The notes under the pieces: generated by a model
Told to the model about the DNA's origin: nothing
Database searches by the model: none
Seen by the model: the letters and a program-made list of their open reading frames with translations, nothing else
Program-made: the position numbers and the translations under genes
DNA from: Candidatus Roseilinea sp.
GTDB taxonomy: Bacteria > Chloroflexota > Anaerolineae > J036 > Brachytrichaceae
DNA length: 64,000 bases
Assembly: GCA_025055235.1 (NCBI GenBank)
Contig: JANWYN010000072.1
Coordinates: 1-64,000 of the forward strand
Direction: 5' to 3'
Shown here: positions 12,965-62,369 of the stretch, one piece after another
Numbering within the stretch: position 1 is the stretch's first letter
Layout of the letters: each line of letters opens with the position of its first letter

Positions 12965-14746
12965 CTAGAAGTAACTGCCGATCACGTCGAGCAGCTTCTT
13001 GATGTTCTCCGGATCGCCGCTCTGCACCTTGGTGTCGCTGGCACGGCCGATCGCGTTCAGCGCGTTGACGTCGGCGTCGCGCCCGTAGGCCACCGGGATC
13101 ACCAAGATCGGCGTGCGGCTGTTGCGCGCCTCGCTCACCTTGCGCACCACCTCGTTTAAGCTGGCCTGCGACGCCGTGTCTTGCCCGTCGGAGAGTAGCA
13201 CGATCGCCTGGATGCGCTCCGGATCCGACGTGGCCTGCAACTTCTCGACGGCGGCAATCACTGCGTCGTAGAGCGACGTGTTGCCGCGGGCTTCGATCGT
13301 ATCCAGCGCGGCTAGGATCTGATCGCGGTTGCTCTCCAGCGCGCCGAGCGGCACCAGCACTTCGATGTCGCTGCTGAAGCGCATCAGCCCGACGTTGTTT
13401 TTGCCGGCCTGGTCTTCGATGAATATCCGTGCCGCTTCGAGCGCCTGGCCGATCTTGTTGTCGTCGCGCATCGAGCCGGACGTGTCAATCAGCAGCACTA
13501 CGTCGGCCTGCTTCTTCACCAGTTGCCACGATTGCTGCACGGCGGCAATGACCGCCGGCTCGGGCACCGGCAGCAGCGTCTTGGGCTGGTTCGGGTCCAC
13601 GCCGGTCTCCGGGCTGATCGGGTAGGCCAGCGGCACTTCCTTGTTGGCCGGGCGGAAGCCGGCTTCGAGCACCTTCTGCTGCACCTCTTTGCTCAGGAAA
13701 TACTGCGTGAAGATCTCCGCAGCTCGGCGCTGTTCGTCCGTCACCCACGGCGCGTTGGGGATGGCGAACGGGTGATCGTGCACGAACGTGCCTTCCTTCG
13801 GATACAGCGCCACCAGCTTCTCCGGCGGCTTGATCTGCGTCTTGCCTTGGTTGATGAAGATCAGATCGTTCTCTTCCAGCGCGACGAAGTCCAGGTAATC
13901 CGGCCCTTGCGCGATGTATTCGATGAACTCTGTGGTGCGCGCCGAGTAGTGCTTGATCAGGTTCTCGATGCGCCGCACGCCCTGTTGCACACGCGGGTCG
14001 TTGACATGTTCCATCGTCAGCCGCGAGGCAGCGTCGGTCTTGCCGGCGTTATAGCGCGCGCTGGCGTAGAACTCGGCCATCAGCGTGGAGAGCGCCGTGG
14101 ATGAGATGCGCGGGTCGGTGTGGCCGTAATACACGGACTGCCGGCCGCTCAGGCCGTAGGCGTTCCAGCCTTGCGGGTTGTCGAACACGGCCAGCAGCTC
14201 CTCCCAGCCGATCTCTGTGCCGTGTTTGGTCTGCAGCGCCTTCAACCGTGACTCCCAAATCGCCATGACCACCGGCGCGATCGCCGTGCCCGGCGCGCCC
14301 TCGACGTCGAACACGCGCTGGCCGGTCTGGTAGTTCACCAGCGCCAACCAGTGCCGCACCGAGGGCGACCACAGCACCGGGCGCTCGACGTTGGCGTTGT
14401 TCGGCGCGATGAACGCGTTGATGATGCCCTCATGCACCGTGCCCGACGATCCGCTGCGGCCCTCGATCCAGATCGGTCGCTCGCCCGGCTGGAGCGATTG
14501 GCCGGTGAGCGGGTTGCGCCCTTGCGCGTAGGCGCGGTTGAAATCGGTGATGATCGTGCTGACGTTCAGGTTCTTGTCGAACTCCGGCGCATAGATGAAC
14601 GACACCTCGATCGCGTTGGCCGGCTTGTTCACCGTCGGCGACTCGCCGGCGATGAAGTTGCCGATCGCGCGGCCGAGCAACACGGCGATGACGACCACGA
14701 TCGCTGTTCCAACGATTAAGCCAAACAAGATCCGATTGCCCTTCAT
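12965..14746 (-). CDS. Membrane-anchored substrate-binding-like protein with VWA domain
   Basis: This 593-aa protein has three parts. Residues 6-30 are one hydrophobic helix (LFGLIVGTAIVVVIAVLLG), a signal anchor. Residues about 45-395 resemble a type-2 periplasmic binding domain (SBP_bac_11-like: EVSFIYAPEFDKN, WSPSVRHWLALVN, the late FTQYFLSKEVQQKVLEAGFR). Residues about 415-590 are a von Willebrand A domain with an intact MIDAS motif DTSGSM and a further Thr in ARGNTSLYD. Start 14746 has GGGGAGG upstream. The family is often annotated as Ca-activated-channel-like; it probably binds a protein or metal partner outside the membrane. Function is not known. Confidence 0.85.
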   Translation of the reverse strand: MKGNRILFGLIVGTAIVVVIAVLLGRAIGNFIAGESPTVNKPANAIEVSFIYAPEFDKNLNVSTIITDFNRAYAQGRNPLTGQSLQPGERPIWIEGRSGSSGTVHEGIINAFIAPNNANVERPVLWSPSVRHWLALVNYQTGQRVFDVEGAPGTAIAPVVMAIWESRLKALQTKHGTEIGWEELLAVFDNPQGWNAYGLSGRQSVYYGHTDPRISSTALSTLMAEFYASARYNAGKTDAASRLTMEHVNDPRVQQGVRRIENLIKHYSARTTEFIEYIAQGPDYLDFVALEENDLIFINQGKTQIKPPEKLVALYPKEGTFVHDHPFAIPNAPWVTDEQRRAAEIFTQYFLSKEVQQKVLEAGFRPANKEVPLAYPISPETGVDPNQPKTLLPVPEPAVIAAVQQSWQLVKKQADVVLLIDTSGSMRDDNKIGQALEAARIFIEDQAGKNNVGLMRFSSDIEVLVPLGALESNRDQILAALDTIEARGNTSLYDAVIAAVEKLQATSDPERIQAIVLLSDGQDTASQASLNEVVRKVSEARNSRTPILVIPVAYGRDADVNALNAIGRASDTKVQSGDPENIKKLLDVIGSYF

Positions 14747-16999: not shown

Positions 17000-17628
17000 G
17001 GCAGCGCAGTGCACACCCACACGGCGACTTCGGCGCGCTCGGTCTGCACGGTATGCGGCTCGAACGCATAGCCGGCGGACTCGAATCGCCGGCGAGTGCC
17101 GTCCGCAGGTGATTCGCCCTGGCCGGTGATGCGATAGGCGAATTTGAGCAGTTCGGTGAGCGCGTCGTTCCCCTTCAAGCGCGCCATCGGCACGATCACC
17201 AGTCGCCCGCCGGGGTGCAACACGCGACGTATTTCGTCCAGCGTCTCACGCGCGAAGATGAACTCGGCCGGGAAGGTGCTGACGGCGCAGGCGAACGACC
17301 GGTCGGCAAATGGCAGGCGCAGCGCCGAGGCGCGCACATGCGCGGGCGGCCGGCCGGTGGTGTTGATGATCCGCTCGCGCAGCATCCGCGCCATTTGTGG
17401 CGAGAGATCTAGCCCGATCACGTCGAAGCCTTGCTGTCGTAGCGCAAGATGTAGGTGGCCCGGCCCATGCGCGATCTCCAGCAGGCGACCTTCGCGTGCT
17501 AGAAACGGGATCGCTGCGCGCCCCCATGCCTTCCATTCGCCGAACGAGACGGCATCCGCCACGAAGTCATACGTCCAGGCGAAGGTGGTGTAGAGCTGGT
17601 GGAAGGCGAAGCGGATCAGGGTGTTCAT
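16963..17628 (-). CDS. Class I SAM-dependent methyltransferase
   Basis: This 221-aa methyltransferase carries motif I as LLEIAHGPGHLHLALR (GxGxxx form with His), motif II near GLDLSPQM, and motif IV/post-I text SALRLPFADRSFACAVSTFP, then RRVLHPGGRLVIV. This is the Methyltransf_11/UbiE-like layout. The start at 17628 (MNTLIRFAFHQLY) is chosen because the upstream codons run into the short-word repeat at 17631-17745. No partner reveals the substrate. The C-terminus overlaps the convergent DUF255 gene by 37 bases. Confidence 0.85.
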   Translation of the reverse strand: MNTLIRFAFHQLYTTFAWTYDFVADAVSFGEWKAWGRAAIPFLAREGRLLEIAHGPGHLHLALRQQGFDVIGLDLSPQMARMLRERIINTTGRPPAHVRASALRLPFADRSFACAVSTFPAEFIFARETLDEIRRVLHPGGRLVIVPMARLKGNDALTELLKFAYRITGQGESPADGTRRRFESAGYAFEPHTVQTERAEVAVWVCTALPQATAARKSSGA

Positions 17629-17630
17629 AG

Positions 17631-17745
17631 TTGATGATTCATGATTGATGATCGGTAATTGGTAACCGGTAATTGGTAATTGGTGTTGATGATTGGGCTG
17701 ATAACCGTTGGTCATCAATCATTAATCATCAATCATCAATCATTA
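17631..17745 (+). repeat. Intergenic foldback of short repeated words
   Basis: The gap between two divergent genes is filled by TGATGATTCATGATTGATGA, then TAATTGGTAACCGGTAATTGG repeats, then on the far side ATCAATCATTAATCATCAATC. Left and right halves are roughly reverse complementary, so the whole can fold back. The words resemble cyanobacterial STRR families. Confidence 0.75.
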
Positions 17746-49010: not shown

Positions 49011-50414
49011 ATGATTCAGGATCATCTTCCGGCGCGCCAACTTCTACTCTGCTCTTGGCTGATTACCTCGGCAAGCGAGCCACCCCAACCCGATCGCGCC
49101 GTCCTAATCGAAGGCGACCGCATCGCCGGCATCGGCGAGATCGAGGCGATGCGATCGCAGCACCCCGACGCTGAAGTGACCGACCTGCGTGGCTGTGCCA
49201 TCTCGCCCGGCTTCGTGGATGCGCACCGGCACTGCTACGGTGTGCTGGCACACGGCATCCCTACCGAGCACGCGCCGGCGGACTTCTGGGCCTTCTTGAA
49301 CGAGTTCTGGTGGGGCAAGATCGAGGATCGCCTTGACCACGACATGTTGCGCGCAGCGATGGACTTGTCATGCTACGACATGATCCGCAGCGGCATCACT
49401 ACGTTCTTCGACTGCCTGGAAGCGCCCAACGCTATCCCGGGCGGGCTGTTCGTCCAGGCCGAGGTGGTCGCGCGCTGGGGGCTGCGCGGCGTGCTGTGCT
49501 TTGAGGCCACGCAGCGGGTGAGCGAACAAAACGGCGAGCTGGGGCTGCGTGAGAATGTCGAGTTCATCCAGGCTTGTCGCGCGGGCCGTGAATCGTGGAA
49601 CGCGGATCGTGGATCGAGCGACGATTCACGATCCACGTTCCATGCTCCACGCCTGATCAGCGGCGCGATGTGCCACCACACCACCTTCACATGCAGCGAC
49701 GACTTCATCTGCAAGGCACACGGGTTGGCGAAGGACCTCGGCGTGTTGCTGCACTTCCACTGCTCGGAGGGAACGTACGAGCCGGAGCAGGGGCTGAAGA
49801 AGTGGGGGCGGCGCACGATCGAACATTACGACGACCTCGGCATCCTCGACGAGACCACGCTGGCGTCGCAGTGCGTGCAGCTCTCGCCGGACGAGGTGCG
49901 CATCGTCGGTGAGCGGGGCATCCGGGTGACGACCATGCCGCTGAGCAATTGCGAAGTGGGCGGCGGCATCGCGCCTGTGCCGGAGATGCGCCGGGCCGGC
50001 GCGACCGTCGGCCTGGGCACCGATGGCTACGTGGCCAACTTCTTCGCCTCGTTGCGCGGCGCGTTCCTGATCCACAAGGCGCGTTTGCTCAACCCCGGTG
50101 CGATGCCGGCGCGCGATGTATGGCAAATGGCGACGAGCGACGGCGCGCGGGCGCTGGCCATGGATGATGCGATCGGGACGCTTGCCGTGGGCAAACAGGC
50201 CGACCTGATAGCGATTGACCTGGATTTGCCGACGCCGGTTACGGCGCATAACTTGCTCGATCAATTGATCCTATGGCGCGATGCCGTGGATGTGCATAGC
50301 GTGATGGTGGCCGGCCGGTGGCTGAAGCGTGATTACGTCGTCCTGAATGCCGATCCTGAGGCGCTGATCGCCAAGACGCGCGAGGCGGCCGGCCGGCTAT
50401 GGCGCGGGGTGTGA
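49011..50414 (+). CDS. Metal-dependent amidohydrolase (chlorohydrolase / SsnA-AtzA type)
   Basis: This 467-aa protein is an amidohydrolase-superfamily deaminase or hydrolase. Metal ligands are visible as HxH in FVDAHRHCYG, a His in LLHFHCSEG near residue 245, and Asp in LGTDGYV near 338. The N- and C-terminal segments form the usual beta-sandwich (VLIEGDRIAGIGE; GTLAVGKQADLIAIDLD). Substrates in this group include guanine, cytosine, S-adenosylhomocysteine and N-ethylammeline-like compounds. Residues about 193-214 come from an in-frame short-word repeat. The nuo promoter follows immediately. Confidence 0.88.
   Translation: MIQDHLPARQLLLCSWLITSASEPPQPDRAVLIEGDRIAGIGEIEAMRSQHPDAEVTDLRGCAISPGFVDAHRHCYGVLAHGIPTEHAPADFWAFLNEFWWGKIEDRLDHDMLRAAMDLSCYDMIRSGITTFFDCLEAPNAIPGGLFVQAEVVARWGLRGVLCFEATQRVSEQNGELGLRENVEFIQACRAGRESWNADRGSSDDSRSTFHAPRLISGAMCHHTTFTCSDDFICKAHGLAKDLGVLLHFHCSEGTYEPEQGLKKWGRRTIEHYDDLGILDETTLASQCVQLSPDEVRIVGERGIRVTTMPLSNCEVGGGIAPVPEMRRAGATVGLGTDGYVANFFASLRGAFLIHKARLLNPGAMPARDVWQMATSDGARALAMDDAIGTLAVGKQADLIAIDLDLPTPVTAHNLLDQLILWRDAVDVHSVMVAGRWLKRDYVVLNADPEALIAKTREAAGRLWRGV
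49587..49651 (+). repeat. In-frame foldback repeat inside the amidohydrolase gene
   Basis: CGTGAATCGTGGAACGCGGA and following GTGGATCG words are mirrored by CGATTCACGATCCACG and TTCCATGCTCCACG words after a 5-base centre. It is a complete foldback element placed in frame and translated as RESWNADRGSSDDSRSTFHA. Confidence 0.7.
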
Positions 50415-52245: not shown

Positions 52246-52312
52246 AGGTAATTCGTAAGTGGTAATTGCAAAGATGCCCACTTGCCATTTACCAATTACA
52301 CATCCGTAAATC
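52246..52312 (+). repeat. Intercistronic foldback of GGTAATT words (nuoH-nuoJ)
   Basis: GTAATTCGTAAGTGGTAATT on the left and CACTTGCCATTTACCAATTA on the right are reverse complementary in pieces. They fill the whole gap up to the nuoJ ATG and leave no ribosome-binding site. Confidence 0.7.
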
Positions 52313-53032
52313 ATGACGATCCATCAAGTGCTCTTCATCGTGATCGCCCTGGCCATCTTAGGGGCGGCGATTTTCGTCGTCACCACCAGCAACCTGTTTC
52401 GCGCGGCGCTGATGATGATCCTGACGTTCTTCGGCGTGGCGGGGTTGTTCGTGCTGCTCGACATCGGCCTGTTCGCCGTGGCCCAGGTGTTGATTTACAT
52501 CGGCGCGATCTCCATCCTGGTCATCTTCGCCGTCATGCTCACGCGCGGCATGCAGGGCATGGTGCCACGCAACTCGCAGGCGGTCGCTGCTGCAGTGGTA
52601 GCGGGGATCATCTTCTTCGTACTGTTGCTCTTGTTCGGCCCGCTGCGCACGACGATTGATGTCGCGCGCTGGCCGATCGTCTCGCTGTTCGCCCGCAACG
52701 TCTCACCGCGCGATGTCGGCGGCGTCGAGTGGATACCGCCGGGCCAGCCGATCCCTGCCGTGCCGGAGACCTACATCGCCGACTTCGGCCGCGCATTGGT
52801 GGACTTGAACCAGTATCTCCTGCCTTTCTTGCTGATCGCCTTCCTCGTGGATGTGGTGTTGGCCGGCGCGATCTTCATTGCACGCCAGCGCCGGCCGGCT
52901 GAGGTGATCGAGGATCGCCAGCGCCAGGCTGAAGAAGCAGCCGAGGAAGCCGAGGCGATGCGACGGGCCGGCATGACGCCGGATGTTGCCGCCCTGCCGG
53001 AGGGCGCAGTGGCTTCGACCGCCGAGCATTGA
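52313..53032 (+). CDS. nuoJ: NADH-quinone oxidoreductase subunit J
   Basis: This 239-aa membrane subunit has five helices. The pi-bulge region of TM3 is conserved (FAVAQVLIYIGAISILVIF). A loop of about 50 residues sits between TM4 and TM5 (from about 120 to 163). The C-terminal tail from about 190 on is charged and Ala/Glu rich (RQRQAEEAAEEAEAMRRAG), an extension not present in E. coli NuoJ. nuoK follows after 30 bases. Confidence 0.94.
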   Translation: MTIHQVLFIVIALAILGAAIFVVTTSNLFRAALMMILTFFGVAGLFVLLDIGLFAVAQVLIYIGAISILVIFAVMLTRGMQGMVPRNSQAVAAAVVAGIIFFVLLLLFGPLRTTIDVARWPIVSLFARNVSPRDVGGVEWIPPGQPIPAVPETYIADFGRALVDLNQYLLPFLLIAFLVDVVLAGAIFIARQRRPAEVIEDRQRQAEEAAEEAEAMRRAGMTPDVAALPEGAVASTAEH

Positions 53033-53062
53033 AATTTCAGCCGCGCTTTTGATCGAGGAATC

Positions 53063-53389
53063 ATGCAAAACGTGCTCAACGGAATCCCGCTGTGGTGGTA
53101 TCTCGTCGTGTCGGCGGCGTTGTTCTGCATCGGCCTATACGGCACGCTGGCGCGCAAGAACGCCATCGCCCTGCTGATGGGCGTCGAGTTGATGCTGAAC
53201 GCCGCCAACATCAACCTGCTGGCCTTCTGGCGCTATCTGGCGCCGGCGTCGTCGGGTGGGCTGGCATTCGCAGCCTTCGTGCTGGTCATTGCGGCTGCCG
53301 AAGCTGCTGTTGGCCTTGCACTCATCATCTCGGTCTATCGCGTCACCCGCAGCATTGATCCTGAGAAGCTGGATCAGATGAAACTGTGA
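53063..53389 (+). CDS. nuoK: NADH-quinone oxidoreductase subunit K
   Basis: This 108-aa subunit has three helices and the two membrane glutamates of the proton path: MGVELMLNAANINLLAF (TM2) and VIAAAEAAVGLALIISVYR (TM3). An RBS-like GAGGAA precedes the start. The gap to nuoL is filled by a large short-word foldback. Confidence 0.95.
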   Translation: MQNVLNGIPLWWYLVVSAALFCIGLYGTLARKNAIALLMGVELMLNAANINLLAFWRYLAPASSGGLAFAAFVLVIAAAEAAVGLALIISVYRVTRSIDPEKLDQMKL

Positions 53390-53399
53390 TGTCGTTCGT

Positions 53400-53566
53400 G
53401 ACAGTTGTCGGTGTCAATGATGTCAAATAGTGTCAGTGGTGTCGGTGGTGTCGAATGGGGGCAGGTGGTGTTGGCCGGCGGTGTGATACCCATGACGCCG
53501 ACGACACTCATGACACCAGCGACACTAGTGACGCTAACAGACACTAACCGACACCCACGACACTAA
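53400..53566 (+). repeat. Intercistronic foldback of GACAC words (nuoK-nuoL)
   Basis: The left arm reads TGTCGGTGTCAATGATGTC and GTGTCAGTGGTGTCGGTGG; the right arm reads GACACTCATGACACCAGCG, GACACTAGTGACGC and GACACTAACCGACACCC. Arms are reverse complementary word by word around a centre near 53475. It reaches to within 8 bases of nuoL. The same word occurs inside the coding region at 18427-18491. Confidence 0.8.
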
Positions 53567-53573
53567 TCGAAGC

Positions 53574-55799
53574 ATGCCGCACGAAACACTAACTACGTTA
53601 CTCTGGCTTGCGCCGCTGCCGCCGATCTTGGCGTTCGCGGTCATTGCGCTGTTCACCAACCGCTACCGACAGACCAGCTCGACGATCGCCGTGCTTGCGA
53701 TGGTCGCGTCGCTGGTGATGTCGTTCATCGTGTTCTTCAACGTCTGGCAGATGAAGGACCTGGGCAAGAAGCCCATCGGCGGGCAGATTGGCTGGTTGCC
53801 CACCGGCGAGACGGTCTTGAACATCGGCGTGGCGGTAGATCCGCTCGGCGCGACCTTCCTGTTCATGGTGCCGCTAGCTTGTACGCTGATCTTCATCTAC
53901 AGCGTTGGCTACATGGCGGCGGATCCGCGTTACACGCGCTTCTTCGCCTACCTTAGCCTGTTCGCCGGCTCGATGATGGGCCTGGTCGTCAGCGACAATC
54001 TGCTCACCCTGTTCATCTTCTGGGAGCTGATGGGTTTCTGCTCCTACTCACTGATCGGTTTCTTCTACCAGAAACCCTCGGCCTACAAAGCCGCCGTCAA
54101 AGCCTTCATGACGACCCGCGTGGGCGATATGTTGCTGCTGCTGGGCATGGTGTATCTCTATGCCGAGACCGGCACGCTGAACTTCCACGCGATCCTGCAC
54201 AGCGAAGAGGTGCTCAACAAGCTGGCCGCCACGCCGGCGGTGCTCGGCTTGGGCATCTCCGCAGCCGGGCTGATCGCCATCCTGATCTTCGGCGGCACGG
54301 TGGGAAAGAGCGCGCAATGGCCGCTGCATGTGTGGTTGCCCGATGCGATGGAAGGCCCGACACCCGTTTCGGCCATGATCCACGCGGCCACGATGGTGAG
54401 CGCCGGTATCTTCATGTTGCTGCGCTTCTTCCCGTTATTAGTTGCCTCGGGCGAACACGGCACGGCCTTCACCCTCGTCGGCTTGATCGGCGCGTTCACC
54501 GCCTTCTTGGGCGCGACGATCGCCGTGGCGCAATACGACATCAAGCGCGTGCTGGCCTTCTCCACCATCTCGCAGCTTGGCTTTATGGTCGCTGCGGCTG
54601 GCATCGGCGCGTATGTGGCGGCGGCCTTCCACCTGCTCACGCATGCTTTCTTCAAGGCGCTGTTGTTCCTGGCTTCCGGCTCGGTCATCCACGGCGTGGA
54701 ACATGGGCATCATCATGTAAGTCACGCGGGTCATTCGGGTCATTCAAGTCATTCAGGTCAGTCAGGTCATGAACATGATGGACATGGCAGACATGACCGA
54801 CCTAACGGACATGACGGACATGATGACCACGGCAGCCACGATGCCCACGCGTTCGACCCGCAAGACATGCGCAACATGGGTGGCTTGCGCAGCCGCATGC
54901 CGATCACGTTCGTGACGTTCTTGATCGGTGGCCTGGCGCTGGCCGGCTTCCCGTTCATCACCGCCGGCTTCTGGAGCAAGGATGAGATCTTCGCCGATGC
55001 CTACTACCACGGCCTGGTCAAGGGCGACGGCTTGGCGGCGCTGGTGTTCCTGGTGCTGGTGGTCAGCGCGCTCCTGACGGCCTTCTACACTATGCGCCAG
55101 ATCGCGATGACGTTCCTCGGCCAGCCGCGCACCGAGGCCGCTGCGCATGCGACCGAGAGCGTGCCCTCGATGACCTTCCCGCTCATCGTGCTGGCCGTGT
55201 TCGCGCTGTTCATCGGCTTCATCAATATTCCGCCGGACTTCCCGGTCTTCGGCGCGCTGGTGGGCGGCGGTGCGTTCTGGCTGAAGAACTTCATCGCCAG
55301 CATGCTGCTGGAGAAGCCGGAGCCGCTGGCGTTCAACATCGTGCCGGTGCTGTTCTCCATCGGCGTCGCGCTGGGTGGCCTGGCGCTGGGCTGGTTCGTC
55401 TATGTGCGCAACCCGCTGCAAGCCGGCCAGACCGATCCGGTGGAAAAGCTGCCGGTGTTCAACTTCCTATACAACCGTTGGTACTGGGACGAGCTGTATC
55501 GCAAGATCTTCATCAACCCGCTCCAGGCCATCGCCGACAACTATGCGCGCGTGGTGGACAAGGGTGTGATAGATCGCATCCTGGAAGGCGGCTATGCCCT
55601 CGGTGCGCGCGTGACGAAGGGTTTCGCCGAGTTCGACCGCGTCGTAATTACCGGCTTCTCCGATGCCGTCGGCCGCTTCTTCCGCAGCCTGGGTGACTGG
55701 GGTCGCGAATTGCAGAGCGGCCAGGTGCAGAACTACCTGCTGTCCGGCCTGGTCATGGTGATTGCGATTCTGGTGTTCTTCTTGTTCCTGTTTCAATGA
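53574..55799 (+). CDS. nuoL: NADH-quinone oxidoreductase subunit L
   Basis: This 741-aa antiporter-like subunit lies at the far end of the membrane arm. Proton-path residues are intact: Glu151 in FIFWELMGF, Lys245 in GGTVGKSAQWPLHVW, and the TM12 Lys in AGFWSKDEIF. Two things are unusual. Residues about 381-425 form a His/Asp/Gly-rich loop between helices encoded by short-word repeats. The lateral-helix region between VIDRILEGG and ELQSGQVQNY is about 25 residues longer than I recall from single-NuoM complexes. The latter fits an enzyme with an extra NuoM, which is encoded just downstream. Confidence 0.95.
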   Translation: MPHETLTTLLWLAPLPPILAFAVIALFTNRYRQTSSTIAVLAMVASLVMSFIVFFNVWQMKDLGKKPIGGQIGWLPTGETVLNIGVAVDPLGATFLFMVPLACTLIFIYSVGYMAADPRYTRFFAYLSLFAGSMMGLVVSDNLLTLFIFWELMGFCSYSLIGFFYQKPSAYKAAVKAFMTTRVGDMLLLLGMVYLYAETGTLNFHAILHSEEVLNKLAATPAVLGLGISAAGLIAILIFGGTVGKSAQWPLHVWLPDAMEGPTPVSAMIHAATMVSAGIFMLLRFFPLLVASGEHGTAFTLVGLIGAFTAFLGATIAVAQYDIKRVLAFSTISQLGFMVAAAGIGAYVAAAFHLLTHAFFKALLFLASGSVIHGVEHGHHHVSHAGHSGHSSHSGQSGHEHDGHGRHDRPNGHDGHDDHGSHDAHAFDPQDMRNMGGLRSRMPITFVTFLIGGLALAGFPFITAGFWSKDEIFADAYYHGLVKGDGLAALVFLVLVVSALLTAFYTMRQIAMTFLGQPRTEAAAHATESVPSMTFPLIVLAVFALFIGFINIPPDFPVFGALVGGGAFWLKNFIASMLLEKPEPLAFNIVPVLFSIGVALGGLALGWFVYVRNPLQAGQTDPVEKLPVFNFLYNRWYWDELYRKIFINPLQAIADNYARVVDKGVIDRILEGGYALGARVTKGFAEFDRVVITGFSDAVGRFFRSLGDWGRELQSGQVQNYLLSGLVMVIAILVFFLFLFQ
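54716..54848 (+). repeat. In-frame short-word repeat inside nuoL
   Basis: GGTCATTC/AAGTCATTC words (about 54729-54770) pass into GGACATGA/CGGACATGAC words (54780-54825). They are translated as HSGHSSHSGQSGHEHDGHGR and continue similarly, between two membrane helices of NuoL. His codons dominate because CAT falls in frame in each word. Confidence 0.75.
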
Positions 55800-55862
55800 G
55801 TTGGTAACTGGTAACTAGTAATTGGTGACCTCCACATACCAGTCACCCGTTGCTAGTTACGA
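55800..55862 (+). repeat. Intercistronic foldback of GGTAACT words (nuoL-nuoM)
   Basis: GTTGGTAACTGGTAACTAGT and AATTGGTGACC on the left are mirrored by ACCAGTCACCCGTTGCTAGTT on the right. The repeat abuts the first possible nuoM ATG at 55863. Confidence 0.7.
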
Positions 55863-57482
55863 ATGACTAGACTGCAAAGCGATCCGACGACGATGAATCT
55901 ATTGAACACGAACCTGCTGTCGGTAATCACTTACCTGCCGCTGGTGGGCATGCTGCTGGTGTTGGTCACGCCGGCCAATCAGACCCGACTGATCAAGTGG
56001 GGTTCCATCGCCTTCAGCCTGATTCCGCTGGGGCTTTCGATTGCGGCGTGGGCCGGCTACGACCGCACCGTGGGCGGCTATCAATACCTCGAGAGCATGG
56101 TCTGGTTCCCCCAGATCAACTCGGTCTACAAGGTCGGCGTGGACGGTATCAGCCTGCCGCTGGTAGTGCTGACATGCTTCCTCACGCCGCTGGCGATGAT
56201 CTTCTCGCTCAACATCGAGCACAATCCGAAGGCCTACTTCGCACTGTTCTTCTTGTTGCAGACGACGGTGCTGGGTGTGTTCATCGCCCTCGACCTGATC
56301 TTGTTCTTCTTGTTCTACGAGGTCAGCCTGGTGCCGATGTACTTCTTGATCAGCCAGTGGGGCGGAGCGAACCGGCGCTATGCATCGTTCAAGTTCATCC
56401 TCTACACCATGTTTGCCAGCCTGGGCATGCTGCTGGCGATTCAGGTGATCGGCCTGGCCTCGAAGAGCTTTGACATCACGTATCTCGAATCGTCGCTTGG
56501 CCGGCCGTTCACCGGCAACAACCAAGTTGAGTTTTTTGGCTGGGACCCGACCGTCTGGAAGGCGATCGCGTTCATCGCCTTCAGCATCGCCTTCGCGCTG
56601 AAGATCCCGATCTGGCCGTTGCATACCTGGTTGCCCGACGCGCACACCGAAGCGCCGACCGGCGGCTCGATGATGCTGGCCGGCATCCTGCTGAAGCTGG
56701 GCGGCTACGGCTTCTTCCGGCTAGTCATGCCGCTCTTCCCCGACGTATTCTCGCAACCGGTATTGCCCGGCCTGAACGTGTTCGGCGCGCCGCTCAACTA
56801 CAGCGTGCTGCTGGCCCTGCTTGCTTTCCTTAGCATCCTATTCGGCGCGTTTGCCGCCTGGGGCCAAACCGACTTCAAACGCTTGGTGGCTTACTCGTCG
56901 GTCAACCATATGGGCTTCGTGGCCCTGGGCATCGCGTCGGCGGGGTTGGCGCTCACGCCGAATTCCACCGTGCGCGAGATTGACGCGACCATCGCCGGCA
57001 GTGGCGCTGTGCTGCAGATGGTGACGCACGGCCTCTCTTCGGCAGCGATGTTCGCCTTGGTTGGCGTGGTATATGAGCGCGCGCACACCCGCGACCTGAC
57101 CAAGTATGGCGGCCTGTGGACGATCATGCCGATCTACGGCGCGGTGCTCATCTTCTGCGCGATGGGCTCGCTGGGGTTGCCCGGCTTGTCCGGCTTCGTG
57201 AGTGAGTTCATGGTCACGCGCGGCGCATGGTCGGTGCATACCCTGCTGACGATTCTCTCGATGGCCGGCTTGCTCATGACGGGCATCTACATCCTCAAGG
57301 CGATCCAGAAGGTGCTCCATGGCCCGCTCGGCGAGGAGTGGCGGCATCATCCGCTGCCGGACATGAACTTCTCCGAGATCCTGGGAATCGCCCCGCTAAT
57401 GGGCGCGATGCTCGTGCTAGGTGTGTGGCCGGCGCTGGCGCTCAACGTGATCAACGTAGGTGTGCAAGGGTTGTTAAGGTAG
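55863..57482 (+). CDS. nuoM: NADH-quinone oxidoreductase subunit M, first copy
   Basis: This antiporter-like subunit (539 aa; 529 if ATG 55893 is used, which may be better because 55863 touches the repeat) keeps the proton-path residues: Glu153 in FYEVSLVPMYFLIS, Lys247 in AFALKIPIWPLHTW, a TM8 Lys in GILLKLGGYGF, and the TM12 Glu in LSGFVSEFMVT. The loop after TM7 is the standard LPDAHTEAPT. It is a canonical NuoM. A second nuoM-like gene follows after 4 bases. Confidence 0.95.
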   Translation: MTRLQSDPTTMNLLNTNLLSVITYLPLVGMLLVLVTPANQTRLIKWGSIAFSLIPLGLSIAAWAGYDRTVGGYQYLESMVWFPQINSVYKVGVDGISLPLVVLTCFLTPLAMIFSLNIEHNPKAYFALFFLLQTTVLGVFIALDLILFFLFYEVSLVPMYFLISQWGGANRRYASFKFILYTMFASLGMLLAIQVIGLASKSFDITYLESSLGRPFTGNNQVEFFGWDPTVWKAIAFIAFSIAFALKIPIWPLHTWLPDAHTEAPTGGSMMLAGILLKLGGYGFFRLVMPLFPDVFSQPVLPGLNVFGAPLNYSVLLALLAFLSILFGAFAAWGQTDFKRLVAYSSVNHMGFVALGIASAGLALTPNSTVREIDATIAGSGAVLQMVTHGLSSAAMFALVGVVYERAHTRDLTKYGGLWTIMPIYGAVLIFCAMGSLGLPGLSGFVSEFMVTRGAWSVHTLLTILSMAGLLMTGIYILKAIQKVLHGPLGEEWRHHPLPDMNFSEILGIAPLMGAMLVLGVWPALALNVINVGVQGLLR

Positions 57483-57486
57483 CTCA

Positions 57487-59022
57487 ATGACGAACGTCCC
57501 CATCCTCACCCTCATCATGCTCGTGCCGCTCATCGGCGCTGGCATCATCCTGCTCGTGCCGCGCGATCGCGAGGACGTGATCAAGACGGTGGCAGCTACG
57601 GCGTCGTTCGTATCGCTGCTGCTCTCGGTGGCAGTGTTCTTCGGCTACGACCGCACTGTCGGCGGCTTCCAGTTCCGGGAGAAGACGACCTGGATACCGG
57701 AGTTCGGCATCGGCTATCACGTTGGCGTGGATGGCTTCTCCGCGACGCAGTTGGTGCTCACCGGCATCGTCATGTTCTCCGCAGTGCTGGTGTCGTGGCG
57801 CTCCGCCGACCGGCCGCGCGATTACTTCGCCTTCCTACTGCTGTTGGTGTCCGGCGTGTTCGGCAGCTTCATTGCGCTCGATATCTTCCTGCTGCTGATC
57901 TTCTACGAATTGGTGTTGTTCCCGGTCTATGTGCTCATCGCCGGCTGGGGCAGCAAGCGACGCGAGTATGCGGCGATGAAGCTGACCATCTACCTGTTCG
58001 TCGGCTCGCTCGTGGCGATCATCGGCCTGCTGGCAGTGTATTTCCAAACTGGTAACTCATTCGACTGGTTCGACCTTCAGGCCGGCGTGCGCAACCTGCC
58101 GCCCGAGCAGTCCATCCAGTTGCAACGCACGTGGTTCCTGCCGATCTTCGTCGGTTTCGGCGTGCTGGCCAGCTTGTGGCCGCTACACAACTGGTCGCCC
58201 GACGGTTACGCCGCGGCGCCCACCGCTGTCTCGATGCTGCACGGCGGCGTGCTGAAGGCGACCGGTGCATATTGCGGCCTGCGCATCGGCATCCAACTGC
58301 TGCCCGAAGGGGCGAAGTATTGGATGCCGGTCATCGTCTTCCTGTGCATGGCCGGCCTGATCTACGCGGCGCTGATCGCCTTCCGGCAGACCGACCTCAA
58401 ATACATCATCGGCTTCTCGTCGGTCAGCCACCTCGGCCTGGTGCTGCTAGGCCTGGCGGCGCTCAACGAACTGGGCTTCAACGGCGCCGGCCTCGAGCTG
58501 TTCGCCGGCGGCGTGATGACCGGTCTGATGTTCGCCCTGGTCGGCATGATCTACGAACGCGCTCACTTGCGCGACGTGCGCGAGCTGAACGGTCTGGTGC
58601 GGGTGATGCCGCTGGCAGCCGTCGGCTTCGTCATTGGCTCGCTCACGCTAATGGGCATGCCCGGCCTGCCCGGCTTCCCGGCCGAGTTACAAATCTTCAT
58701 GGGCCTGTGGAACGCCTCAACGACGCCAAGCCTGATGTTCCCAGGCGCGACGAATGGCTGGTACGCCGTCGTGGCCGTGGCCAGCATCATCGTCATCGTG
58801 ATCAACGCCGCGTGGACCCTGCGCGTGGCCGGCCAGGTGTACTTCAGCGAGCCGCAGGATATGGAGCTGCAAAAGTTGCCGCGCCTCGACGCGCTGGAGA
58901 AGACGGCCATCGTGCTGATGTGTGCCGTGCTCATCGTCGTCGGTGTGTTGCCGAACACAGTCATGTCGGTGGTCAACGCCGGCGTGCAAGCGATCATCCG
59001 CGGCTTGACCGCGACGGGATAG
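57487..59022 (+). CDS. NADH-quinone oxidoreductase subunit M, second divergent copy
   Basis: This 511-aa protein aligns with NuoM throughout (VGVDGFSATQLVLTG, WPLHNWSPDGYAAAPTAVSM, YERAHLRDVRELNGL). Glu141 (IFYELVLFPVYV), the TM8 Lys257 (GGVLKATGAY) and a TM12 Glu (LPGFPAELQIF) are kept. The TM7 lysine is not: the position four residues before WPLH is Leu227 (FGVLASLWPLH), where canonical NuoM has Lys. The adjacent Pro is also lost. It probably sits as an extra module in the membrane arm. Whether it pumps protons is doubtful from the sequence. Confidence 0.92.
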   Translation: MTNVPILTLIMLVPLIGAGIILLVPRDREDVIKTVAATASFVSLLLSVAVFFGYDRTVGGFQFREKTTWIPEFGIGYHVGVDGFSATQLVLTGIVMFSAVLVSWRSADRPRDYFAFLLLLVSGVFGSFIALDIFLLLIFYELVLFPVYVLIAGWGSKRREYAAMKLTIYLFVGSLVAIIGLLAVYFQTGNSFDWFDLQAGVRNLPPEQSIQLQRTWFLPIFVGFGVLASLWPLHNWSPDGYAAAPTAVSMLHGGVLKATGAYCGLRIGIQLLPEGAKYWMPVIVFLCMAGLIYAALIAFRQTDLKYIIGFSSVSHLGLVLLGLAALNELGFNGAGLELFAGGVMTGLMFALVGMIYERAHLRDVRELNGLVRVMPLAAVGFVIGSLTLMGMPGLPGFPAELQIFMGLWNASTTPSLMFPGATNGWYAVVAVASIIVIVINAAWTLRVAGQVYFSEPQDMELQKLPRLDALEKTAIVLMCAVLIVVGVLPNTVMSVVNAGVQAIIRGLTATG

Positions 59023-59023
59023 T

Positions 59024-59106
59024 TCTTCGTTCTCAGTTTTAAGGTTTTAAGTTTTGAGTTGAAGAGGCAACTCAAAACTCAAAACTTAGAACTCAAAACT
59101 CAAAAC
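59024..59106 (+). repeat. Intercistronic foldback of CTCAAAA words (second nuoM-nuoN)
   Basis: TTTTAAGGTTTTAAGTTTTG and AGTTG on the left are mirrored by CAACTCAAAACTCAAAACTT and AGAACTCAAAACTCAAAAC on the right. It ends at the nuoN ATG; upstream in-frame codons from 59059 only translate the repeat. Confidence 0.8.
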
Positions 59107-60600
59107 ATGGCTGGTTCTTTCGTCGAGTTCAATCCTGCCGAGTTCCTCGGCATCCTGCCGGAGATTTTGTTGCTGCTGTGGTCCATGGTTGTCCTGGCGC
59201 TCGACCTGGTCTCCGGGCGGTCGCTTAAGCGCCGCACCCTGGGCGTGACGTCGGCCATCGGCATGATCGTCATCCTGGTTGTGGCGATCATCAGCCGGCC
59301 GGCCGAGCCGCAGACCATCCTCGGCGGCATGATCCGTAACGACCTGTACACGTTCGTCTTTCGCATCATCTTCATCGCCGCCGGCGCGCTCACCTGTTTG
59401 GTCTCAATTGACTTCCGCTCGATGCGGATCGGTAGCGAATACTACGCCATCATCATCTTCACGACGATCGCGATGTCGCTGATGGCCGGCGCGAACGACC
59501 TGATCATGCTGTTCCTGGCCACCGAATCGTCGAGCTTGTCGTTGTATTTGCTAGCCGGCTTCTACCGGGGCAACAGGCTGAGCGCGGAGGCCGGCATGAA
59601 GTATTTCGTGTTCGGCGCGGTCACCTCGGCGGTGATGCTGTTCGGCCTGAGCCTGTTCTACGGCTTGAGCGGCGGCAACACCAGTTATCAGGCCATATCT
59701 CGCGCCCTGCTCGATCCCGATCTGCGCGTGCCGGTTTCCTTCGCGGCGCTGCTGGTGCTGGTCGGCTTCGCATTCAAGACCTCGGCCTTCCCGTTCCACT
59801 TCTGGGCGCCGGACGTGTATCAAGGCGCGCCAACGCCGATCTCCGGTTACATCAGCACTGCATCGAAGGCGGCCGGCTTCGCCATCTTGATGCGCTTCCT
59901 GTTCTACACGCTGCCGCCAGGCACGTCGGAGGCGTCGTTGACTTGGGCGGCGCTCATGCAGCCGCTCGCCATCCTGACTATGGTCATCGGCGGTTTGCTG
60001 GCGCTGGTGCAGAACAACGTCAAGCGCATGCTGGCATATTCCAGCGTCGCGCAGGCCGGCTACATCCTCGTCGGCGTGACGGCGCTGGCTGCCAATCAGT
60101 TCAACCGCGCCGATGCGCTGGCGGCGGTGATCTTCTACATCGCCACCTACATGCTCACCAACATCTGCGCCTTTGCCGTCGTTGGCCTTGTCTCGGAACG
60201 CGTGGGCGGCGATGACATCGAGCACTTTAACGGGCTAGGCCGGCGCGCGCCCTACCTCGCGCTGGGGATGACGGCGGCCCTGGTGAGCCTGCTCGGCGCG
60301 CCGCCGCTGGTCGGCTTCGTGGCCAAGCTGCTGGTCTTCGCTCCAGCCGTCGGCGTCAACTTGATCGCGCTTGTGGTCATCGCCATCATCATGGTGCTGG
60401 TGTCGGTTGTGTACTACTTGAACGTGGTGCGGGCGATGTATGTGGAGCGCACCGAGCGCGATGCCCAACCGTTCTATGTGCCCGCGCCAACCGGCGTCGC
60501 CGTGTTGCTCACTGCTGTGGCCATCGTGTTGTTGACCGTGGTCTCGCCGCCGTTCTGGAACCTGGCGATTGAAGCGGCGCAGTCGTTCTTCCCGGGATAA
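59107..60600 (+). CDS. nuoN: NADH-quinone oxidoreductase subunit N
   Basis: This 497-aa antiporter-like subunit starts MAGSFVEFNPAEFLGILPE. Key residues are present: Glu in FLATESSSLSLYLLAGFY, Lys in GFAFKTSAFPFHFWAPDVYQ, and the TM12 Lys in LVGFVAKLLVFAPAV. It contacts NuoK and the first NuoM. The start at 59107 follows the repeat directly, without a ribosome-binding site. Confidence 0.95.
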   Translation: MAGSFVEFNPAEFLGILPEILLLLWSMVVLALDLVSGRSLKRRTLGVTSAIGMIVILVVAIISRPAEPQTILGGMIRNDLYTFVFRIIFIAAGALTCLVSIDFRSMRIGSEYYAIIIFTTIAMSLMAGANDLIMLFLATESSSLSLYLLAGFYRGNRLSAEAGMKYFVFGAVTSAVMLFGLSLFYGLSGGNTSYQAISRALLDPDLRVPVSFAALLVLVGFAFKTSAFPFHFWAPDVYQGAPTPISGYISTASKAAGFAILMRFLFYTLPPGTSEASLTWAALMQPLAILTMVIGGLLALVQNNVKRMLAYSSVAQAGYILVGVTALAANQFNRADALAAVIFYIATYMLTNICAFAVVGLVSERVGGDDIEHFNGLGRRAPYLALGMTAALVSLLGAPPLVGFVAKLLVFAPAVGVNLIALVVIAIIMVLVSVVYYLNVVRAMYVERTERDAQPFYVPAPTGVAVLLTAVAIVLLTVVSPPFWNLAIEAAQSFFPG

Positions 60601-60666
60601 GACAACCCAACTCCCCACTCCCGACTCCCTTAAGTTTGGCCATAGGGGAGTGGGGAGTAGGAGTCG
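60601..60666 (+). repeat. Intercistronic foldback of ACTCCCC words (nuoN-atpI)
   Basis: ACTCCCCACTCCCGACTCCC on the left is mirrored by GGGGAGTGGGGAGTAGGAGTC on the right, around TTAAGTTTGGCC. This word family is one I associate with cyanobacterial STRR sequences. Confidence 0.8.
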
Positions 60667-60687
60667 GATTCGTGGCGTCACGCATGC

Positions 60688-60693
60688 TAAAAT
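60688..60693 (+). promoter_or_regulatory. Possible internal promoter for the F0 genes
   Basis: TAAAAT preceded by TGC (extended -10 form) lies 12 bases before the atpI ATG at 60706, with GGAG between. It would allow the atp genes to be transcribed apart from nuo. Confidence 0.4.
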
Positions 60694-60705
60694 CGGAGTC
60701 GCAAG

Positions 60706-61059
60706 ATGCATAGCCCCAAACGCGAATCGCCGTTCGTCATCTTCCTCAAGGCATTCCCACCCCAGATCATCGCCGCGATGGCCGTCCAGATCGCGTTGAT
60801 CAACGGTGCGCTCATGCTGGGGGGCGTATTCCTCGGCATCATGCTCGACCGCCAGTTTGATACGCGCCCGCTGTTGACGCTCATCCTGCCGATCCTCGGC
60901 GCGATCCTCTCCGTGTTCGTCACCTACCGGATGGCGATGCGCACGGTCAAGCGCTCCCGGCAGGCTTATCTGGACTGGGTGGAGTCGCAGCGCGCCAAAG
61001 ACAACAACGCGCCGGCCACGCAGAGCGCGCCGGCCATCACGCTCAACGACGCACACTAG
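60706..61059 (+). CDS. ATP synthase AtpI/AtpZ-like protein
   Basis: This 117-aa protein has two membrane helices (IIAAMAVQIALINGALMLGGVF; LLTLILPILGAILSVFVTYRM) with the short GIMLDRQFDTRP link, as in AtpZ/AtpI proteins encoded at the start of F0 operons. These help assemble the c-ring and may transport Mg2+ or Ca2+. The C-terminus is a hydrophilic tail. atpB follows after 45 bases. Confidence 0.8.
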   Translation: MHSPKRESPFVIFLKAFPPQIIAAMAVQIALINGALMLGGVFLGIMLDRQFDTRPLLTLILPILGAILSVFVTYRMAMRTVKRSRQAYLDWVESQRAKDNNAPATQSAPAITLNDAH

Positions 61060-61104
61060 CCTAGCTACCACGCGAGATCGAATGAGGTTTGAAACTGTCG
61101 TGAT

Positions 61105-62208
61105 ATGAAAGGGTTGAAGTTCCTCGTCATTTTGGTCTTGGCCATCGTGGCCGGTCTCCTGCTCAGCAGCTTCACGTTGAACATCAACGGCGTGGCTGTG
61201 CCGTTCAAGACGTTCATCCCCAACATCGTCGTGCCTTCGGAGCCGCTCGGCCCGGATTGGTTGCACAACACGCTGTTCACGACGTTGATTGTGGACATCG
61301 TGATCATCGTGCTGGCACTGTTGGGTGCGCGCGGCTTGCGCAATACGCTCACCGGCACCAACTGGTTCGCGCGCGCGTGGGAGACGTTCATCGAGTTCCT
61401 CTACAACAACTATCTGGTGCCCACGCTCGGCTCGCGTGCTAAGGCCGTCGCGCCGATTGCGATCTCCATCTTCACGTTCATCATGATCGCCGGCTTCTTC
61501 GAACTGTTGCCCGGCCACGAGTCCGTTGGCAAGATGGAGGCCGCGCCGCCCAGCCTGCGTGGCTTCTGCGCCGTCAAGGCGGGTGGGGTGTGGTTGATCA
61601 CCGGCTATGAGGTGGACAAGTCCAAAGGCTTCGCCGAGTCGTGCGGCTACACGCTTGAGCAGGCAGAAGGGGTCGCTGCCGGTGATGGCGCCGAGCTCGC
61701 CGCGCTTACCAGCGACGTGCAGGCCGCTCCGGCGATGGCCGGTGGCACGGATCCGAACGCCGGCGCGGCACTCATCCCCTTCCTGCGCCGCCCAACCTCC
61801 TCGCTCAGCACCACGCTGGCGCTGGCGGTGCTCGCCTTCTTGTTTATCGAGATTCAAGGCATCCGCGCCAACGGCATCCACTACTTCAGCCGCTTCATCC
61901 AAGTGGACGCCTGGCGGCGCGCGCACCAAGGCATGATGCAGGGCCTGGTCGGCAACATCCAGGCCGGTCTGGTCGGCCCGCTCGAGTTGATCTCCGAGTT
62001 CATCCGCATCGTGTCGTTCTCATTCCGACTTTTCGGCAACATGTTCGCCGGGACGGTGCTCGTCTTCGTGATGGCGTCCATCTTCCCGGTGCTGTTGCCC
62101 ACCGTCTTCTACGGCCTGGAGTTTGCGATCGCCGTGATTCAGGCGTTCGTGTTCATGATGTTGATCACCGTGTTCACGTCACTGGCTGTGGCGCATGGTG
62201 AACATTAA
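61105..62208 (+). CDS. atpB: ATP synthase F0 subunit a
   Basis: This 367-aa subunit makes the proton half-channels. The essential Arg is at residue 308 in SFSFRLFGNMFAGTV, and GPLELISEFIR and AVIQAFVFMMLITVF are conserved. It is about 95 residues longer than E. coli subunit a. The added part lies at about 137-228, a Gly/Ala/Glu-rich stretch with two Cys (GFCAVKAGG, ESCGYTLEQ) between two helices, presumably exposed outside the membrane. Start has no strong ribosome-binding site. Confidence 0.93.
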   Translation: MKGLKFLVILVLAIVAGLLLSSFTLNINGVAVPFKTFIPNIVVPSEPLGPDWLHNTLFTTLIVDIVIIVLALLGARGLRNTLTGTNWFARAWETFIEFLYNNYLVPTLGSRAKAVAPIAISIFTFIMIAGFFELLPGHESVGKMEAAPPSLRGFCAVKAGGVWLITGYEVDKSKGFAESCGYTLEQAEGVAAGDGAELAALTSDVQAAPAMAGGTDPNAGAALIPFLRRPTSSLSTTLALAVLAFLFIEIQGIRANGIHYFSRFIQVDAWRRAHQGMMQGLVGNIQAGLVGPLELISEFIRIVSFSFRLFGNMFAGTVLVFVMASIFPVLLPTVFYGLEFAIAVIQAFVFMMLITVFTSLAVAHGEH

Positions 62209-62369
62209 CGGTTGATGATTGATGACTGATGATTGGTAACTGGTAACTAGTAACTGGTAATTAGTAAATGCGTTGTTAGCATTCAATTACAGACTACCAA
62301 ATATTTACCAGTTACCAATTACCAATTACTAAACCAGCTACAAGTACCAATTACTAAACCAGCTACAAG
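62209..62369 (+). repeat. Intercistronic foldback of TGATGATT/GGTAACT words with 25-bp tandem copy (atpB-atpE)
   Basis: TGATGATTGATGACTGATGA and TTGGTAACTGGTAACTAGTA words on the left are mirrored by ACCAGTTACCAATTACCAAT on the right. A 25-bp unit TACCAATTACTAAACCAGCT+ACAAG is then repeated once exactly (62320-62344, 62345-62369). Confidence 0.8.

Follow-up and report, generated by a model that had tools for sequence, protein, structure and literature searches.

Short tandemly repeated repetitive (STRR) sequences of cyanobacteria are short degenerate tandem heptamers that lie between genes. Heptamer repeats are also known from xanthomonads and other bacteria. In Xanthomonas, GGGAATC repeats are dispersed and mostly intergenic, with few copies between divergent genes and 7–11% intragenic, and in two species they form close convergent pairs, 70 in one and 75 in the other (PMC4692102). 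The P6b stem of the Nostoc trnL intron consists of facing heptamers, Class I TDNGATT and Class II NNTGAGT, whose word sets were replaced repeatedly at one site (PMC4476775), and TAACTGA direct repeats are distributed patchily over Beggiatoaceae, Cyanobacteria and Bacteroidetes, with no transfer mechanism evident to their author (PMC4679880). These three accounts leave the mode of spread open. The palindromic elements of Rickettsia form families of ~150 bp that reside in frame inside unrelated metabolic genes (PMC10969869). Here we consider a window of 64,000 nucleotides of Candidatus Roseilinea sp. (Chloroflexota; contig JANWYN010000072.1, positions 1 to 64,000), in which gaps of the nuo-atp operon are filled with foldbacks, that is, with degenerate short words arranged as two reverse-complementary arms. 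Among the top-ranked entries of a literature search, with subscription journals mostly outside its reach, there was no account of such foldbacks in Chloroflexota. We propose that they are probably STRR-type dispersed DNA repeats of ~80 bp that spread and turn over at the DNA level, the mode of spread being the part that we infer.

A preliminary description of the window had reported the two-armed arrangement in the gaps nuoH-J, K-L, L-M1, M2-N, N-atpI and atpB-E, where M1 and M2 are two successive nuoM genes, and all six passed the shuffle tests (Table 1). We compared an inverted-repeat score and the 7/9-base periodicity of each gap with 400 dinucleotide shuffles: the inverted-repeat score was not reached by any shuffle in any of the six (p = 0.0025), and the periodicity gave p = 0.0025 in five of them and p = 0.01 in nuoH-J. 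The three unfilled gaps of testable length, nuoA-H (just outside the span), J-K and atpI-B, served as controls and were shuffle-like (inverted repeat p = 0.51–1.0, periodicity p = 0.56–0.85), with RNA fold z values of 0.58, 1.09 and −0.64. The corresponding values of the filled gaps are listed in Table 1; those of K-L and atpB-E refer to the first 141 and 150 bases only.

Other details of the preliminary description had to be adjusted. Foldbacks were said to fill every second junction; the pattern from nuoH to atpE is + - + + - + + - +, i.e., six of the nine junctions. The word length given as 7–10 bp is nine bases in K-L and seven in the other gaps, and the statement that each gap has its own word does not hold for nuoH-J, L-M1 and the inner part of atpB-E, which have GGTAA(C/T)T in common, while it does hold for the remaining gaps, the outer word of atpB-E being TGATGAT. 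At its end, the atpB-E gap also contains a 25-bp unit in 2.5 copies (62307–62369); arm words are part of this larger duplication.

We compared the genome under study (G000) with eight congeners (G001–G008), with genomes of a sister genus, among them G013, and with G033 from the same class. Base-by-base conservation of the operon gaps, which would have refuted the preliminary description, was not seen in the eight congeners; the gaps differ in length and word across these congeners and four sister-genus genomes. In K-L, a GACAC-word foldback occurs in G000, G004 and G006 and a foldback of the 7-base word GTATTGC in G007, and G001, G002, G005 and G008 have words without a foldback, with a relic of the right arm only. 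In G006, the nuoH-J gap contains GACTTCC-type words (periodicity p = 0.005) with a nonsignificant inverted repeat (p = 0.13), and the nuoN-atpI gap has a significant inverted repeat (p = 0.005) with nonsignificant periodicity. The nuoL-nuoM gap is only 10–22 bp long in G004, G007 and the four sister-genus genomes. Both tests, for words and for a foldback, were passed by six gaps in G000 versus four of the 62 gaps tested in the congeners. Operon gaps of the sister genus are 4–48 bp long in all but one case and contain no words; a short plain hairpin is present in the nuoA-H gap of three of these genomes.

Foldbacks outside the operon were called in genome samples with a detector that requires two tandem arrays of one common period facing each other. 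This detector and general repeat finders pick up four of the six operon foldbacks (K-L, M2-N, N-atpI and atpB-E); the weaker foldbacks of nuoH-J and L-M1 do not reach their thresholds, so the counts given here are undercounts. The 1.87 Mb sampled from the genus contained 89 foldbacks, versus five in one shuffle of each stretch. G000 has 53 in 741 kb, which scales to ~285 per genome, and G006 has 32 in 800 kb (~187 per genome). The smaller samples gave 2 in 43 kb of G004, 1 in 120 kb of G008 and 1 in 80 kb of G001, and the detector called none in 60 kb of G005 or 25 kb of G007. None was found in 200 kb of the sister genus G013, where the loosest setting yielded one (shuffle 0), and 200 kb of G033 contained four foldbacks of another kind (shuffle 1; 14 versus 4 at the loosest setting).

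The 85 elements of G000 and G006 have period 7 in 70 cases and period 9 in 12; the median element measures 80 bp and the median loop 14 bp (n = 83). Exact tandem heptamer pairs exceed the shuffled level in both genomes (116 vs. 39 in 376 kb of G000, 98 vs. 33 in 400 kb of G006), and the top heptamer classes are the same: AATCTCC, AAGACGC, AATCATC, ACCTCTG, AATTCTC, ACTCCCG, AAAGATG, AATTACC and others. The recurring vocabulary comprises about a dozen words common to unrelated loci; the words are not private to the operon and recur across the G000 samples and in G006. Two period-6 hits were left out of the word counts, and an in-gene 9-mer call (L085) that resembles GC-rich chance was kept in the counts.

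These data bear out the likeness to cyanobacterial STRR heptamers put forward in the preliminary description. Degenerate tandem words of about seven bases, dispersed and mostly intergenic, are what we observe here, with period 7 in 70 of 85 elements and 52 of 85 in gaps; set side by side by the general description of STRR sequences, the two are alike in their degenerate intergenic heptamers, and the present elements differ in having facing arms and several words per genome. The GGTAAYT foldback, sought in one arm order in 84,980 species genomes, was present on 25 contigs in 14 genomes (counted by isolate), namely eight Chloroflexota, four filamentous Cyanobacteria, and one metagenome-assembled genome (MAG) each of Betaproteobacteria and Phycisphaerae; the matches in the two MAGs could be binning errors. 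By inspection, TTTGAGT of the M2-N gap fits the Class II word NNTGAGT of the Nostoc P6b stem (PMC4476775). That stem, as described, belongs to one structured RNA, whereas here the sites are genome-wide DNA sites, many of them coding, with no RNA-strand signature. The TAACTGA repeats are alike in being intergenic heptamers in scattered phyla, with strain-specific paths and indels in 7-nt steps (PMC4679880), although that account concerns one word, nearly always in direct arrays and, in the main species, mostly just upstream of starts.

The 85 foldbacks are distributed unevenly between gaps: 46 lie in 838 co-directional gaps, five in 163 convergent and one in 163 divergent gaps (p = 0.004 for co-directional vs. 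divergent, p = 0.24 vs. convergent). Six lie at sample ends or partly overlap genes, and 27 lie within coding sequence, including the two period-6 elements and the one resembling GC-rich chance. For gene calling, long open frames served to train a Markov model, whose calls agree with the genes of the operon. This in-gene share (27/85 called) is larger than the 7–11% given for Xanthomonas. The sole divergent-gap foldback called in the two samples, at 17623–17743 of the window, shares its word pair with the atpB-E gap. Nothing evident linked the foldbacks of G006 with the replication strand.

Ten proteins with in-gene elements were examined. Five are encoded by genes scoring above NCBIfam cut-offs (trpB, carB, purL, murD and proA), with the elements in frame; the best matches of the others, below cut-off, are a photolyase, an amidohydrolase, an aldehyde dehydrogenase, a dihydrolipoamide acyltransferase and an antiporter subunit A. 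Alignments with the congeners place the in-gene elements in length-variable protein loops. In trpB, the GAATTGA word is present in G006, G000, G001 and G004 (IENEELR...SQFSILNSQF and similar), four other genomes have a non-word insert and G007 has a short loop; on the solved chain 5ey5_B, the insert of G006 maps between residues 266 and 268. The loop of the window's amidohydrolase-like gene has 6 aa in G004 and ~23 aa in G000 and G006. In-frame residence in genes is common to these elements and the Rickettsia palindromic elements.

Several sites point to turnover of the words. At the same loop of purL, the detector called elements with the word GGAGATT in G000 and GACGCAA in G006, and one arm in G004 has GGATGGC words, seen by eye; in the second loop of carB, also judged by eye, the words are of GAATTGA in G000 and GGGATCA-like in G006. 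Together with the K-L gap of G007, these swaps of words at one site support turnover. In nuoL, a His-rich loop is present in all 11 orthologues covering it (G003 does not cover it), and its 9-mer expansion was seen by eye in G000, G004 and G006; the foldback lies inside the older loop and thus represents an expansion, not an insertion. The long loop itself (HGHHHVSHAGHSGHSSHSG..., window 54690–54870) varies in length, is present in 12 of 12 sequences covering the region and is a possible metal-binding loop in complex I.

The preliminary description suggested that the foldbacks could set segmental mRNA stability or block ribosomes. In this reading they would be pause sites, ribosome blocks or stability barriers of the polycistronic mRNA. 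The folding of the six gaps, better than that of shuffles (z from −2.6 to −6.5), and the preference for co-directional over divergent gaps speak for such a role, which we nevertheless consider improbable. Pairing maintained in the transcript would be expected to leave more G-U than A-C mismatches on the sense strand. We counted 66 of each among 1744 aligned pairs from 75 elements whose sense is known (95% interval of the G-U share 0.41–0.59), as compared with seven G-U and no A-C in 23 tRNA acceptor stems taken as a control (filtered for at least four Watson–Crick pairs, with the end offset picked for most pairs). The residence of 27 of 85 foldbacks within coding sequence and the scarcity of foldbacks at the same junctions of congeners (4/62 gaps) also speak against it. 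Shine–Dalgarno motifs (GGAG/GAGG/AGGA) have a similar frequency with or without an upstream foldback (13 of 43 genes just after one vs. 302 of 1160 others). The downstream genes were said to lack ribosome-binding sites; a missing motif is common here, and atpE has a GAGGAG motif that is kept in seven of eight congeners. Intrinsic terminators were considered and rejected, with 11 sites of a GC stem plus T-run found, 9.4 expected and none in the six gaps. A structured regulatory RNA was likewise rejected on the nonconserved gaps, the equal mismatch counts and the lack of any Rfam family at gathering score within the window.

A foldback reads identically on both strands, so its arm order is a property of the element and is silent on the direction of transcription. 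Families were assigned to seeds of our choice with at most two mismatches, and 78 of 87 elements were retained after dropping six without a family and three single-member families. The order follows the family majority in 72 of the 78 (random mean 51; 72 never reached in 20,000 simulated runs) and, for G000 alone, in 42 of 45. Exceptions include ACCTCTG (1 vs. 4) and ACTCCCC (9 vs. 1). Among 400 phylum genomes, a draw that included four genus genomes, the GGAGATT-first foldback occurs in two (9 matches in G000, some overlapping) and the opposite order in none; similarly, the AATTCTC-first order opposite to GAGAATT was found in none of the nine genus genomes, the sample containing three usual and no opposite cases.

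The nearest precedent for the fixed order is provided by the Xanthomonas pairs, which are also degenerate dispersed heptamers forming foldbacks of fixed arm order. That account describes one G-tract word, whereas the present vocabulary of about a dozen words is mostly without G tracts and includes 9-base words, and the ACTCCCC family has its C-rich arm first. A quadruplex-type G-tract word is not a general trait here: AATTCTC, AATCTCC, AATTACC, AATCATC and AAAGATG have no GGG on either strand, and ACTCCCC has one.

Dispersed families of fixed arm order could also be mobile palindromes copied whole by a transposase, of the type of miniature inverted-repeat transposable elements (MITEs), REPINs or Rickettsia palindromic elements. 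In-frame residence in enzymes agrees with this, as does a multiword tract, GAATTGAGAATGAAGAATTGAG, which has a set order of variants and 24 exact matches in five of the nine genomes. The loops indicate otherwise. In the AATTCTC family (n = 15), the arms score 0.85, the loops 0.34 and shuffled loops 0.34, and loops are no more alike than shuffled ones in four of five families, the exception being GACACCAAC (0.40 vs. 0.31), in which arm words reach into the called loop. The likeness of whole elements including the loop, as in Rickettsia elements and MITEs, is thus absent from four of the five families, and the Rickettsia families of ~150 bp contrast with word arrays of ~80 bp with unrelated loops here. 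Since the loops are unrelated, whole-element copying does not fit, and we rate it as unlikely. No target-site duplication was visible in the aligned sites, although for none of them does a near relative offer a clean empty counterpart.

Matches to the Y1 transposase (Y1_Tnp) number four in G006, three in G004, two in G000 and one each in G001, G003 and G008, with none in G002, G005, G007 or G013. They loosely track foldback density, but G033 has four without word foldbacks, and the detector called no word foldback at any of the eight loci analysed (~5 kb each) out of the 12 genus matches, which also speaks against transposition. Repetitive extragenic palindromes (REPs) or REPINs driven by a REP-associated tyrosine transposase (RAYT) were rejected on these eight loci, two of which have GC-rich palindromes. 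At the Y1 locus of contig G000:C100, a single GAATTGA array lies ~1.3 kb off, which is unremarkable at 7 per 100 kb. On another contig (G000:C83, L239:2776–3017), GC-rich GCCGGCGCRGGCCGGC palindromes follow a RAYT-like Y1 transposase gene and are perhaps that transposase's own REP family.

The order of word variants within the arms provides a further constraint. Variants are unmirrored between the arms: the central register was best in 12 of the 57 elements with long enough arms, 11.9 being expected by chance, so simple snap-back copying does not fit. The same result bears on purely local growth, in which every site would generate its words by polymerase slippage and gain its second arm by quasipalindrome correction, independently of other sites. 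Slippage of heptamers has been proposed for bacteria (PMC4679880 and PMC4692102), the loop of a deaminase differs in length stepwise across the genus, and in several congener gaps the words run one way only and lack facing arms, all of which agree with local growth. It would not lead one to expect arms that are not mirror copies, nor a dozen or so words common to unrelated loci, nor a fixed arm order; the shared vocabulary and fixed order do not fit local slippage, and as a complete account it seems to us rather improbable.

Spread and turnover at the DNA level might proceed as follows. Replication or repair would encounter a hairpin, and the growing strand would switch to a similar arm, its partner or one belonging to another foldback, copy a few words and then return. 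Such word-wise switching would hold both arms to one vocabulary and carry words between sites, while leaving the loop local and scrambling the order of variants. We suggest that template switching between like arms could account for most of three regularities, namely the fixed arm order, the shared arms with private loops and the absence of mirror copying. The foldbacks lie where they should do least harm, in co-directional gaps and in length-variable protein loops; their preference for gaps within transcription units is as compatible with tolerance as with function.

Several points weigh against spread at the DNA level by this route. Switching between loci is a step that we infer and have not observed, and by itself it leaves the seeding of new sites and their fixed arm order unexplained except by descent; none of the sites aligned paired a fresh gain with a clean empty site. 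The words do not always come with facing arms, as several congener gaps hold words in one direction only (4/62 passing both tests). The order is not fixed in AAGACGC (4 vs. 3) and AAGTCAG (1 vs. 1), and the elements scored for it are not all independent, some being orthologues or paralogues that were kept in. Later slippage could also erase mirroring, the preference for co-directional gaps would equally suit a role inside transcripts, and the placement of foldbacks rests on gene calls of a home-made model.

An enzyme that writes the words is a further, highly improbable explanation. A polymerase or reverse transcriptase with a few short templates would add the same word to both 3' ends of broken DNA before joining, which would yield facing arms of fixed order, one vocabulary, unmirrored variants and unrelated loop filler; if true, the foldbacks would be a telomerase-like repair scar in bacteria.

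To the known heptamer repeats, this genus adds a version with many words, in which copies are dense and also occur in frame in conserved enzymes, and in which sister species that have foldbacks can be compared with others that lack them. The three regularities place sharp constraints on any mechanism of spread and can be checked in other genomes. The case also calls for caution in taking such hairpins for regulators of an operon.

Table 1. Foldbacks located in the window, with coordinates and the evidence for each (z, RNA fold z value).
Feature	Position	Strand	Evidence
nuoH-nuoJ foldback, GGTAATT / AATTACC	52247..52299	.	inverted-repeat p 0.0025, lag-7 p 0.01, z −4.0
nuoK-nuoL foldback, 9-base word GTGTCGGTG / GACACTAAC	53399..53570	.	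repeat finders, detector, shuffle tests, z −2.6
nuoL in-gene 9-base foldback, in frame, GGTCATTCA / ACATGACGG, expands His-rich loop	54721..54823	.	repeat search, alignment
nuoL-nuoM (L-M1) foldback, GGTAACT	55802..55861	.	shuffle tests, z −3.2
Second nuoM-nuoN (M2-N) foldback, TTTGAGT / ACTCAAA	59034..59106	.	repeat finders, detector, shuffle tests, z −6.5
nuoN-atpI foldback, ACTCCCC / GGGGAGT, C-rich arm first	60607..60667	.	repeat finder, detector, shuffle tests, z −4.1
atpB-atpE foldback, outer TGATGAT, inner GGTAACT / AGTTACC	62212..62369	.	repeat finders, detector, shuffle tests, z −4.3
Intergenic foldback with TGATGAT and GGTAATT	17623..17743	.	repeat search; gap called divergent
CGTGGAT-type 7-base foldback, in frame in amidohydrolase-like gene (49011–50414)	49587..49652	.	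alignment; family matches below curated cut-offs

Two further observations concern neighbouring and duplicated genes. The window has two successive nuoM genes (55863–59022), the second having only 33–36% protein identity with the first in nine of nine genus genomes. On contig G000:C33 (L090), adjacent antiporter-type paralogues each contain a GTCGG-type foldback at a corresponding position within the gene, each followed by an ATCTTTC foldback (5000–5064, 11177–11234, 8228–8314 and 14314–14360).

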